From Beijerinckiaceae bacterium (lineage in GTDB: Bacteria; Pseudomonadota; Alphaproteobacteria; Rhizobiales; Beijerinckiaceae), in NCBI GenBank assembly GCA_025459195.1, contig JALORF010000008.1:1-38010 (forward strand): a stretch of 38,010 bases of DNA, given 5' to 3'. The position numbers and the translations under genes were made by a program. The notes under the pieces were generated by a model. The model was not told the DNA's origin. It ran no database searches and saw nothing but the letters and a program-made list of their open reading frames with translations. Of this stretch, positions 1,080 to 4,038 are shown in pieces (the first letter of the stretch is position 1; the number at the start of each line of letters is the position of its first letter).

Positions 1080-1592
1080 TCAGTCCTTGCGCCCCTCATC
1101 CTGGCCGATCGTATCGATCTTCGCCTGCAAGGTCACCTTGTCGAGTTCGTGAACCGGCAGTGACGCGAAGATCGAGATGCGGTTGTTGAGCATCCGGTAG
1201 GCATCAGCGAAGGCGAGGGCGCGTTGCGCTTCGTCGCCAACTGCCTTCACCGGGTCCGGCACTGGCCAGTGCGCGCTCAGCGGCTGTCCTGGCCAGGAGG
1301 GGCACTGTTCCTTTGCCGTCACGTCGCAAACCGTGAAGACGAAATCGAGATCGGGAGCCCCCTTTGCAGCGAACTCTTCCCAGCTCTTGGAGCGAAGGCC
1401 GGAAACATCGAAATTGAGCCGCGTCAGCAGGTTGAGCGCCATGGGCTCCACCGTTCCGCTCGGATGCCGGCCAGCGCTGAAGCCTCGGAAGGTGCCGGCG
1501 CCGATACGGTTGATGATGGCTTCCGCCATGATCGAACGGGCAGAATTGGCAACGCACAGGAACAGAACATTGTAAGGGCGATGGTCGAGCAT
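1080..1592 (-). CDS. arsC: Arsenate reductase, thioredoxin-type (low-molecular-weight phosphatase fold)
   Basis: 170-residue protein of the LMW tyrosine phosphatase/ArsC family, which reduces arsenate to arsenite through a cysteine relay. The phosphate-binding loop CVANSAR (Cys13 to Arg19) follows the first beta strand. The two further relay cysteines are visible at Cys89 and Cys97 (VCD...QCPSW), followed by the family motif HWPVPDP near residues 108-114. I chose the ATG at 1592 because GAGG lies 9 nt upstream; an in-frame ATG at 1607 is possible. The open frame runs much further upstream, but only as a shadow of arsJ. It is the third gene of the gapdh-arsJ-arsC set, 71 nt after arsJ, and that gap contains its own PhoB-box-like repeat. 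No arsenite efflux gene (arsB/acr3) is in the window. Confidence 0.88.
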   Translation of the reverse strand: MLDHRPYNVLFLCVANSARSIMAEAIINRIGAGTFRGFSAGRHPSGTVEPMALNLLTRLNFDVSGLRSKSWEEFAAKGAPDLDFVFTVCDVTAKEQCPSWPGQPLSAHWPVPDPVKAVGDEAQRALAFADAYRMLNNRISIFASLPVHELDKVTLQAKIDTIGQDEGRKD

Positions 1593-1639
1593 CTGACATG
1601 ACCTCATTTCGTCGATGCCGGTCGACGTAGAGCGCTTCC

Positions 1640-1657
1640 GTGACAGACCGGTGACAG
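1640..1657 (-). promoter_or_regulatory. Candidate Pho box (PhoB binding site) between arsJ and arsC
   Basis: On the minus strand this reads CTGTCAC-CGGT-CTGTCAC: two identical 7-mers separated by 4 nt, giving the 11-bp period of the PhoB consensus CTGTCAT-N4-CTGTCAY. It is oriented towards arsC, whose ATG is 47 nt downstream. A weak -10-like TACGTC follows at the usual distance of about 10 nt. The repeat and its spacing are seen directly; binding by PhoB is inference. Confidence 0.68.
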
Positions 1658-1663
1658 CCACGA

Positions 1664-2932
1664 TCAGTTGGCAGGCGAGGTCTTTGCCGTGGGCAGGGCC
1701 TGGGTGGCCAGCCAGCAGGTTGCCAGCATGAGCCCCGAGCCGATCAGGCAGGCGCTGATGCCGCCCCACTGAAACAGCAGGCCCGACAGCAGCGTGCCGG
1801 CAAACCGACCGGCGGCGTTTGCGGCGTAGTAGAAGCCGACATCCTCTGCCGCCTTCTCGGAGCCCGCATAGGCCAGGATCAGATAGGAATGAACCGACGA
1901 GTTGACCGCAAACATCACGCCAAACAGGCAAAGGCCGGCCACCAGAACAAGGTCCGGCCGGGGCGGGCCAAGCCCAAGCACGCCCGCCAGCGCGAACGGC
2001 ACCAGCATCAACATGAGTGACCACAGCCGTGCCGCCGGCACCTCGGCCGAAAGCCCGTCGACGCTGCGCCGGATGACGGCAGGTGCTGCCGCCTGCACCA
2101 GTCCATAACCGATGGTCCAGATGGCCAGGAAGGCACCCACCATGGGGAATGTCCAGCCGCCCGCATAGAGAAAGACCGGCACGCCAACCACGAACCAGAC
2201 ATCACGTGCGCCGAACAGGCCGATGCGCGCCAGCGCCAGAAGATTGACGCCGCGGCTTTTGCCGAACAGTTCCCTTGCGCTTCTGCTTGGCCTGGATTTG
2301 CCCTTGAGGGCCGGCAGCGACAGCACCACGCCGCACAGCACCAGCGCAAGAACGCCCGCCATCAGCCAGAGCGCGGGGGAAAACCCGAACGCTTCCAGCA
2401 GCACCCCGCCCAGAAAGAAGCCAAGGCCCTTCATGGCGTTCTTGGAGCCGGTGAACCAGGCAACCCAGCGGAAAAGCCGGCCTTCACCGCTTCCTTTGGC
2501 TTCCGCTTCGGTCAGCTTGATCGCGGATTTGGACGCGGTTTTGGTCAGGTCCTTGGCAACGCCGCAGATGCCTTGCGCCAGAACAACCCAGGTGACGAGA
2601 AAAGCTGCTTCCCAGCCAGGATTCATCGCCGACAGGATGAGAAAGCCGATGATCTGGGTGCTCAGGCCCACGATCAGCATGCGCTTGATGCCATGCCTGG
2701 CGGCCAGCCAGCCACCCACCATGTTGGCGAGAATGCCCGCCGCTTCATACAGCAGGAACAGGAAGGCGAGCGTGAAAGGCGAGTAGCCGAGCTTGAAGAA
2801 GGTGAACAGCACGAGCATGCGCAGGGCACCATCTGTCAGCGTGAAGCCCCAGTAAGCCGCCGTGACGATGCCATAGTTGCGCAAGCCGGCGCTTGATGCG
2901 GGTGGCGGTGATGCGCTCCCGGCCTGGGCCAT
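1664..2932 (-). CDS. arsJ: Organoarsenical efflux MFS permease ArsJ
   Basis: Major facilitator superfamily inner-membrane protein of about 422 residues with 10-12 hydrophobic segments. ArsJ exports 1-arseno-3-phosphoglycerate made by the partner GAPDH; outside the cell the product falls apart and releases arsenate. Diagnostic stretches for the ArsJ family are YWGFTLTDGALRMLVL near the N-terminus, NMVGGWLAARHG after TM2, a conserved cytoplasmic loop GVAKDLTKTASKSAIKL and GARDVWFVVGVPVFL. The ATG at 2932 has AGAGG 9 nt upstream; a TTG at 2938 overlapping the gapdh TGA by 4 nt is an alternative that adds two residues. Translational coupling to gapdh is expected either way. The gene pair gapdh-arsJ is the established functional unit for this resistance mechanism. 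Confidence 0.9.
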   Translation of the reverse strand: MAQAGSASPPPASSAGLRNYGIVTAAYWGFTLTDGALRMLVLFTFFKLGYSPFTLAFLFLLYEAAGILANMVGGWLAARHGIKRMLIVGLSTQIIGFLILSAMNPGWEAAFLVTWVVLAQGICGVAKDLTKTASKSAIKLTEAEAKGSGEGRLFRWVAWFTGSKNAMKGLGFFLGGVLLEAFGFSPALWLMAGVLALVLCGVVLSLPALKGKSRPSRSARELFGKSRGVNLLALARIGLFGARDVWFVVGVPVFLYAGGWTFPMVGAFLAIWTIGYGLVQAAAPAVIRRSVDGLSAEVPAARLWSLMLMLVPFALAGVLGLGPPRPDLVLVAGLCLFGVMFAVNSSVHSYLILAYAGSEKAAEDVGFYYAANAAGRFAGTLLSGLLFQWGGISACLIGSGLMLATCWLATQALPTAKTSPAN

Positions 2933-2934
2933 GC

Positions 2935-3978
2935 TCAAAGGCCTCTGGTCTCAAGGTGACAGGCTAGATCGACCATGCGGCAGGCATAACCCATCTCGTT
3001 GTCATACCAGGCATAGACCTTGAGCAGCGTGCCATCGGTGACCAGCGTGGACAACCCGTCGATGATGGCCGAGCGGGTATCGCCCTGAAAGTCGACGGAT
3101 ACCAGTGGACGGGGTTCGTAACCCAGGATGCCGGCGAGCGGGCCGGCAGCCGCCTCGGCGAACAGGCCGTTCACGTCCTCCGCCGTCACCGGGCGGCGCA
3201 TCTCGAACACGCAATCTGTCAGCGAGGCGTTGAGAACCGGCGCCCGCACGGCATGGCCATCGAGCTTGCCCTTGAGTTCGGGGTAGATCAGGCCGATGGC
3301 GGTGGCGCTGCCAGTCGTGGTCGGCTGCAAGGACAGCATCGCCGAGCGCGCACGGCGCAGATCCTTGTGGGGCGCATCGACCACGACGTTGGTGTTGGTC
3401 GGGTCATGGATCGTGGTGATCTGCCCGTGCCGGATGCCGACCGCCTCGTGCAGGACCTTGACCACCGGGGCCAGGCAATTGGTGGTGCAGGATGCGGCGG
3501 TGACGATGTCGTGCTTTGCCGGCTCGTAAAGCTGTTCATTCACGCCGACCACGATGTTCAACACGTCATCGACCTTGACCGGAGCCGCCACGATGACGCG
3601 TTTCGCGCCACGCGCCAGATGGCCCTCGATGGTGGCGCGGTTCAGGAACTTGCCGGTGCATTCCAGCACCAGATCGACGCCGAGATCGCCCCAGGGGATG
3701 TCGGCAGAGGCCTTGTGCTCGGAAAATCCGAGCCGCCTGCCATTGATGACGATGGCGTCGGCACCATCAGCCATGATCTGGCCGCGCCAGCGGCCCTGCA
3801 TCGAATCGAACTCAAGCAGATGGGCCGTCGCCGCCGCGCCGCCCTTGATCTCGTTCACATGCACCACCTCGAGCCGGTTGCCGGCGCGCGGATCGTCATC
3901 GGGCCGCTTCGCCGCGCCAAACGCAGCCCTCAGCGCCAGCCGCCCGATCCGGCCCATGCCGTTGATGCCAACTCTCAT
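2935..3978 (-). CDS. gap: ArsJ-associated glyceraldehyde-3-phosphate dehydrogenase
   Basis: 347-residue type I GAPDH. In this context it joins glyceraldehyde-3-phosphate and arsenate to give 1-arseno-3-phosphoglycerate, the substrate of ArsJ. The NAD-binding start [10 protein letters not shown], the catalytic AASCTTNC (Cys164) and TTIHD (His191) are present, as are the phosphate-site HKDLRRAR segment and the C-terminal WYDNEMGYA. The start is the ATG at 3978, which gives the canonical [14 protein letters not shown]-terminus and has GGAG 8 nt upstream; a longer open frame to 4038 adds a non-conserved leader. First gene of the operon: its stop overlaps or abuts arsJ. A Pho-box-like repeat lies 43 nt upstream. 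Without arsJ next door it would be called a housekeeping gap gene; the adjacency makes the arsenate role likely. Confidence 0.9.
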
Positions 3979-4003
3979 GACAATAGCTCCGCAGTGATCG
4001 CTG

Positions 4004-4009
4004 CCTATA
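4004..4009 (-). promoter_or_regulatory. Candidate -10 element of the gapdh-arsJ-arsC promoter
   Basis: Minus-strand TATAGG lies 11 nt downstream of the Pho-box-like repeat at 4021-4038 and 25 nt before the gapdh ATG. At PhoB-activated promoters the Pho box replaces the -35 element and sits about 10 bp before the -10, which fits. Four of six bases match TATAAT. Confidence 0.45.
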
Positions 4010-4020
4010 GGCTCCCTAAC

Positions 4021-4038
4021 ATGACAGATCGATGACAC
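4021..4038 (-). promoter_or_regulatory. Candidate Pho box (PhoB binding site) upstream of gapdh-arsJ-arsC
   Basis: Minus strand GTGTCAT-CGAT-CTGTCAT: two 7-mers with an 11-bp period that match the PhoB consensus CTGTCAT-N4-CTGTCAY at 13 of 14 defined positions. It is oriented towards gapdh, 43 nt before its ATG and 11 nt before a TATAGG hexamer. Orientation argues against control of the plus-strand glycosyltransferase at 4189. Sequence and spacing are seen; PhoB control is inference. Confidence 0.75.

Follow-up and report, generated by a model that had tools for sequence, protein, structure and literature searches.

A Pho box in front of an alphaproteobacterial gapdh-arsJ-arsC operon suggests control of arsenate export by phosphate starvation

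A Pho box with a single mismatch to the consensus lies at promoter distance from the gapdh-arsJ-arsC arsenate export operon of the Beijerinckiaceae genome analysed here, and the same element recurs before related operons of alpha- and betaproteobacteria. Control of the operon by this box is well supported by the sequence comparisons described below. Phosphate transporters are the route by which arsenate enters and poisons cells, and they work hardest in water and soil that are poor in phosphate. The recurring box suggests that cells arm their arsenate defence when phosphate scavenging begins, which is when arsenate leaks in most. If true, direct sensing of phosphate starvation by the promoter would account for this preparation, arsenate tolerance would depend on environmental phosphate, and arsenic biosensors or surveys built on arsR alone would miss part of the regulation.

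The window, that is, the whole stretch of 38,010 nt that was analysed, is an entire contig (C11) of a 3.23-Mb genome in 253 contigs (G000). The operon and its candidate regulatory elements are all on the minus strand:

4021-4038, minus strand: Pho box 1, GTGTCAT-CGAT-CTGTCAT, 42 nt upstream of the gapdh ATG, with a single mismatch to CTGTCAYN4CTGTCAY
4004-4009, minus strand: −10-like hexamer TATAGG, 11 nt past Pho box 1 (in relatives mostly 10 nt, TAnnnT)
3991-4004, minus strand: GCAGCGATCACTGC, an imperfect dyad with 6 of 7 pairs formed, its centre 40.5 nt from the box start
2935-3978, minus strand: gapdh, ArsJ-associated glyceraldehyde-3-phosphate dehydrogenase (NF033735, 531.7 bits, cut-off 450)
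1664-2938, minus strand: arsJ, MFS exporter of 1-arseno-3-phosphoglycerate, function by family (NF033734, 508.2 bits, cut-off 400)
1640-1657, minus strand: Pho box 2, CTGTCAC-CGGT-CTGTCAC, no mismatch, in the gap between the arsJ stop and the arsC start, 47 nt before the arsC ATG
1611-1626, minus strand: weak dyad GTCGA-N6-TCGAC, after Pho box 2
1080-1592, minus strand: arsC-like gene, low-molecular-weight phosphatase family, 170 aa (PF01451, 44.7 bits, cut-off 23.2)

The genes for ArsJ and the ArsJ-associated GAPDH are adjacent and both products exceed the curated NCBIfam cut-offs, which identifies a GAPDH-ArsJ arsenate efflux system. The name arsC is a likely but weaker label, because the protein passes only the broad LMWPc family model and stays below the curated cut-off for thioredoxin-type arsenate reductase (TIGR02691, 56.1 versus 174.3 bits). 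The genome holds an arsC-like gene without a match at E ≤ 0.001 to the usual arsenite exits, Acr3 and ArsB (genome completeness 96.7%). The contig ends 1.08 kb past arsC, and the neighbourhood on that side is seen only in part. An earlier note made from the sequence alone had spoken of organoarsenical resistance; the system handles inorganic arsenate, which leaves the cell as an organoarsenical.

That note had also proposed the Pho box itself, and its description of the sequence and strand is accurate: read on the minus strand from 4038 to 4021, the box is GTGTCAT, CGAT, CTGTCAT, with the repeats 11 bp apart, and TATAGG (4009-4004) follows after 11 nt. Only the distance from the box to gapdh needs correcting, from 43 to 42 nt, with the ATG at 3978. 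The longest open frame of gapdh begins at a GTG within Pho box 1, but alignment to the family models sets in directly behind the ATG at 3978. Pho box 1 lies on the gapdh strand with a −10 hexamer at promoter distance, as in a PhoB-dependent promoter.

The rest of the genome places this site in a wider set. Two exact and 10 one-mismatch matches to CTGTCAYN4CTGTCAY were found, and two of these 12 sites are in the gapdh-arsJ-arsC operon, both on the sense strand; at up to two mismatches there are 90 sites, versus 27 for the reversed pattern. The earlier note had proposed a comparison with pst and pho genes. By mismatch count Pho box 1 is among the 12 best sites, and four others of these mark the beginning of phoX, of ugpB and of two genes for phosphonate-type binding proteins:

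C68 (L004): exact box at a binding-protein gene matching the phnS2 model below its cut-off
C247 (L124): box at another binding-protein gene matching the phnS2 model below its cut-off
C79 (L122): two overlapping boxes at ugpB
C136 (L134): box 63 nt before the phoX frame
C84 (L127): tandem Pho repeats at olsB, with 2 to 3 mismatches
C57, C60, C118, C117 and C141: putative sites at the one-mismatch level near or before a LacI-type gene, an ATP-grasp gene, corA, fabA and a histidine phosphatase-like gene, respectively
C54: putative site at the same level, inside a frame

The boxes on C247 and C79 overlap the first possible start codon, so that their position before the genes follows from where the family match starts. 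PhoB itself is encoded in the genome (335.8 bits, cut-off 296.2), and phoU adjoins its gene on the same contig (C81), in the first 9 kb of which no Pho site was found at up to two mismatches. Part of this organism's Pho regulon is outlined by the boxes at phoX, ugpB, olsB and the two phnS2-like genes. One of these genes (L004 1-860, C68) is split over two frames, by an assembly error or as a pseudogene.

Pho box 2, which the earlier note did not mention, is one of the two exact sites in the genome and a better match than Pho box 1, and TACGTC follows it after 10 nt. It is not conserved: all 20 other arsJ-arsC gaps checked lack it (3 to 6 mismatches). The dyad behind it, before arsC, differs at two positions from TTCNA-N6-TNGAA, the ArsR-like dyad of the relatives considered below.

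How often does the box stand before related operons? A first sample of 108 loci consisted of the window itself, 27 further loci from its family and the best 80 of 563 arsJ relatives in named genomes; 28 of 298 genomes in that family have arsJ, the window's own included, and a match at a contig end (G132) was left out. A complete gapdh start was available in 100 of the 108, and removal of six duplicates gave 94 alpha- and betaproteobacterial loci, which are mutually related and were picked by similarity to the window ArsJ, and hence are not independent. In the 300 nt before gapdh, on the sense strand, the box is present in 3, 9, 29 and 44 of the 94 loci at up to 0, 1, 2 and 3 mismatches, compared with means of 0.007, 0.05, 0.44 and 3.4 (maxima 1, 2, 9 and 29) for 300 permuted motifs. 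At two mismatches random windows gave a mean of 0.48 (maximum 3) and the antisense strand a single locus out of 94, and spacers of 2, 3, 5, 6 and 7 in place of 4 gave 1, 0, 1, 5 and 0 loci. Conservation before orthologous operons, which the earlier note had put forward as a check, is thus borne out by 29 of 94 loci against 0.44 expected, and also by a wider set. This second sample was drawn from 398 genomes of the phylum, 118 of them with arsJ, which yielded 121 matches besides that of the window; 89 were examined and seven dropped (gapdh cut or absent), leaving 82 mostly distant loci. Six of the 82 carry the box at up to two mismatches, versus 0.175 expected (maximum 2) and none on the antisense strand. 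All three loci whose ArsJ is at least 72% identical to that of the window have it, versus 3 of the 79 others, in which ArsJ is about half identical; in distant ArsJ operons the box is mostly absent, with 76 of the 82 loci at more than two mismatches. Extending the search to 1400 nt upstream gave 8 of 82 loci at up to two mismatches against a mean of 1.05 (maximum 4, 60 permutations), three of the eight being the close relatives L200-L202, and a modest excess at up to three (22 of 82 versus 9.9, maximum 19). The two samples are not fully independent, since L200 and L045, which agree in box and flank, probably represent a single genome.

On the point of close orthologues, whose lack of a box the earlier note would have counted against it, the result is divided: 29 of the 94 loci have the box, but five close gapdh-arsJ relatives with a divergent arsR (L032, L035, L039, L173 and L174) do not (5-6 mismatches). 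On a quick tree of the 94 loci, computed with two long rows, the box appears in separate alphaproteobacterial groups (the window; L040, L045 and L070; L194-L196) and is widespread in Burkholderiales, and gain and loss of the box cannot be told apart. In L178, near the window in this tree, the −60 position is likewise occupied by a repeat, TCGTCAT-N4-TCGTCAT, four mismatches from the consensus. In a genome of the window's genus (L177, G084, region 2512-3852), arsJ occurs and no gapdh was seen over the 7.3 kb that were read; CTGTCGT-CATA-ATGTCAT, 11 nt and TTAAGA can be seen by eye upstream of this arsJ. The two-mismatch box before gapdh in L106 may be false, as that stretch has inverted repeats of ArsR-operator type by eye.

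These data bear on three other explanations of Pho box 1. That it is a chance match could be argued from the window alone, which holds 4 sites at up to three mismatches versus 4.54 expected and hence shows no enrichment at that level; a loose match accordingly carries no weight and it is the one-mismatch level that counts. For this reason we judged significance at zero to two mismatches and by comparison with relatives, mismatch counts being a crude score. The one-mismatch level of Pho box 1, the second, exact site in the operon, the recurrence in relatives and the fixed register with the −10 and a dyad make coincidence extremely improbable. It is also very unlikely that the box serves the divergent neighbour, a WecG/TagA/CpsF-type glycosyltransferase gene of exopolysaccharide type that begins at about 4189. 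The intergenic region of about 210 nt which contains the box is common to this gene and gapdh, and exopolysaccharide genes are Pho-regulated in some rhizobia; Pho boxes are directional, however, and this one is oriented to gapdh and suitably spaced from a −10. The relatives likewise have their box on the strand of gapdh (29 of 94 loci, versus 1 of 94 antisense). We give similarly little credence to another OmpR-type regulator that would bind a like 11-bp direct repeat. Response-regulator-like proteins are plentiful in this genome, where the PhoB model finds 42 matches of which one is above the cut-off, but the same motif stands at its phoX, ugpB and phnS2-like genes.

The relatives reveal a second element. 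Among the 44 loci with a box at up to three mismatches, inverted symmetry peaks 40.5 nt from the box start, where at least 6 of 8 pairs are formed in 14 loci, compared with at most two loci at each of 49 other centres. Their alignment reads Pho box, 10 nt, TAnnnT and TTCAA-N6-TTGAA, an order that is rigid in Burkholderiales; in L194-L196 the dyad lies 47 nt from the box start, versus 33 nt elsewhere. In arsR-downstream loci with a box at up to three mismatches, the A and the T of box-N10-TAnnnT are each present in 23 of 23. Exact TTCNA-N6-TNGAA occurs before gapdh in 22 of 30 arsR-downstream loci (permuted dyads: mean 0.32, maximum 13) and, where no arsR was detected, in 5 of 12 (mean 0.07, maximum 1), and before arsR itself in 11 of 21 arsR-first operons (mean 0.18, maximum 3). 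ArsR proteins usually repress their own promoter, and since the dyad also precedes arsR genes, it is most likely an ArsR operator. An arsR is found in the examined stretch of 21 of the 29 box loci, the window included, downstream of gapdh in 14 of the 21; as the ArsR-like dyad often overlaps the −10, PhoB plus ArsR appears to be the common design. The earlier note had inferred that phosphate starvation rather than an arsenic sensor switches the operon on. As a rule this goes too far, given the 21 of 29 loci with arsR and the common dyad, but it may hold in the window, where the arsenic half is missing locally.

The distribution of the box might seem to suggest that local loss of arsR goes with gain of a Pho box. 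In the raw counts at up to two mismatches, the box is present in 8 of 12 loci without a detected arsR, 4 of 31 whose arsR lies upstream and in the same orientation, 3 of 19 whose arsR is divergent, 14 of 29 with a downstream arsR and none of three with arsR on two sides. We rejected this idea, since independent pairs on the quick tree gave no significant association (sign test of box versus upstream arsR, median p 0.625 at up to two and 0.25 at up to three mismatches). The raw contrast is partly an artefact, because arsR-first operons have their promoter before arsR. When loci without a box at gapdh and with a same-strand arsR start within 1.1 kb were scanned over the 300 nt before the ArsR domain (two too-short loci dropped), the box was found in 3 of 19 at up to two and 11 of 19 at up to three mismatches, against permuted means of 0.045 and 0.6 (maxima 2 and 7). 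Loci of the Acetobacteraceae type (such as L041, L050, L108 and L109) are arsR-arsC-gapdh-arsJ operons in which a variant box with three mismatches lies 63-65 nt before the ArsR domain and is followed by an ArsR-like dyad.

Is arsenic sensed at the window operon at all? A search of the 4 kb upstream of the gapdh start and of the 4.0 kb between it and the window end found no ArsR match, and the five HTH_5 matches of the genome are all on contigs other than C11. Over the 150 nt that precede gapdh, the closest approach to TTCNA-N6-TNGAA has 4 mismatches. That arsR is missing locally is not in itself proof that arsenic sensing has been lost, since five of the 12 loci in which no arsR was detected keep the exact dyad. 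Dual control may operate here too, with PhoB activating and an ArsR acting in trans as repressor through an unrecognised operator, for example GCAGCGATCACTGC (3991-4004). A candidate exists: on C34 (position 19901, L132) an ArsR-type protein with a C-terminal Cys pair is encoded next to an ArsP-type permease gene. Dual control also looks common in relatives, and GCAGCGATCACTGC, of another sequence, has the same centre as the Burkholderiales dyad. However, the inverted repeat seen by eye at the start of the C34 arsR, ATTTCT-N8-AGAAAT, has no counterpart before either gapdh or arsC, where even the best match misses 6 of 12 arm bases, and GCAGCGATCACTGC is four mismatches from the ArsR-like dyad and was not seen by eye in the relative L178. 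It may be due to chance, since 6 of 8 pairs are also formed in the window around a different centre (30.5). We consider dual control in the window unlikely, though worth keeping in mind, and regard a phosphate rather than an arsenic sensor as plausible for this genome.

The explanation that, taken as a whole, we hold to be probable is the following. Pho box 1 would be a functional PhoB site replacing the −35 element of the gapdh-arsJ-arsC promoter, and PhoB~P, made when phosphate is scarce, would turn on the operon together with phosphate and organophosphate uptake genes. Pho box 2 would offer PhoB a second entry and give arsC a separate boost. Entering arsenate would be converted, judging by family function, into 1-arseno-3-phosphoglycerate and exported, and because the uptake systems that carry arsenate peak under phosphate starvation, the exporter would be made in advance, to the presumed benefit of the cell. 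In many relatives, polymerase would be brought by PhoB to a promoter that lacks a −35, while the putative ArsR operator lies over the −10, so that ArsR would cover the −10 and the start and full expression would need both low phosphate and arsenic. In the window lineage, where neither a local arsR nor the ArsR operator was found, the PhoB half would act alone, the arsenic half having been either lost or never present. Against this explanation stand the spacing to the −10 of 11 instead of 10, the five close divergent-arsR loci without a box, the four mismatches of the L178 repeat, the lack of a significant link between box and upstream arsR over the tree, the rarity of the box in distant ArsJ operons and the absence of Pho box 2 from other arsJ-arsC gaps. 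We narrowly favour a more general reading, in which GAPDH-ArsJ export in alpha- and betaproteobacteria belongs to the Pho regulon through an ancestral or recurrent AND-gate promoter (Pho box, 10 nt, −10, ArsR operator) that would fire only when phosphate scavenging and arsenic coincide, some lineages, such as that of the window, using phosphate alone. With its fixed PhoB/ArsR geometry, this arrangement offers a ready system in which to study how a bacterial promoter combines two signals.

Pho regulon promoters are known from E. coli phoA and pstS and from the PhoB regulon of Sinorhizobium meliloti. Like them, the window promoter has a pair of 7-bp repeats with an 11-bp period that takes the place of the −35 and lies 10-11 nt before the −10, and its genome shares the companions phoX, ugpB, olsB and phosphonate-type binding proteins, whereas the target differs, being an arsenate exporter and not phosphate acquisition. 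Arsenate efflux by gapdh-arsJ has reportedly been described in Pseudomonas aeruginosa DK2. Two papers give the family function as conversion of arsenate to 1-arseno-3-phosphoglycerate, which is exported (PMC9601151, PMC5930303), and place the pair also in the Vibrio cholerae var operon (PMC9601151) and in Halomonas GFAJ-1 (PMC5930303). The var operon has one ArsR-repressed, arsenate-induced promoter before arsR (PMC9601151); the window has the same two protein families, but no local arsR, a Pho box and a terminal arsC-like gene.

PhoB control of other arsenic genes has already been published. In Halomonas HAL1, according to a report that also describes Pho box architecture, PhoB binds the arsenite oxidase genes aioBA in gel shifts, at a poor (56% identity to consensus), antisense box (PMC4563254), and a review states that PhoB1 acts on the aio genes of Agrobacterium (PMC7533571). 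The same phosphate-starvation regulator is involved there in arsenite oxidation, whereas the window concerns arsenate export. ArsR and Pho inputs also meet in Agrobacterium 5A, where ArsR1 represses pstS1 and phoB1 (PMC7965956), and another paper reports that aioBA is controlled by phosphate and pstS1 by ArsR (PMC3834237); in Agrobacterium 5A ArsR acts on phosphate genes, while in the window PhoB sites lie on arsenic genes. In phosphate-limited Nodularia spumigena, transcripts of ArsJ-associated GAPDH increase (log2 1.57 and 2.41), most arsenate-related genes lack a pronounced change, arsR is in the cluster, and the authors found no conserved box (PMC9846622). Nodularia by its transcripts and the window by its Pho box both link this GAPDH to low phosphate, the former being a cyanobacterium with arsR in the cluster. 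Our searches found no report of PhoB or Pho-box control of gapdh-arsJ, which is apparently unreported in the largely open-access literature covered; an earlier mention elsewhere is possible.

As to the origin of the operon, the locus of a genome placed in the window's own genus (G246) equals the Bosea sp. BH3 locus over the 960 nt compared, which puts the organism in the Bosea group. In the quick tree, however, the GAPDH-ArsJ of the window groups with loci from other genera and not with Bosea loci, a hint of horizontal transfer.
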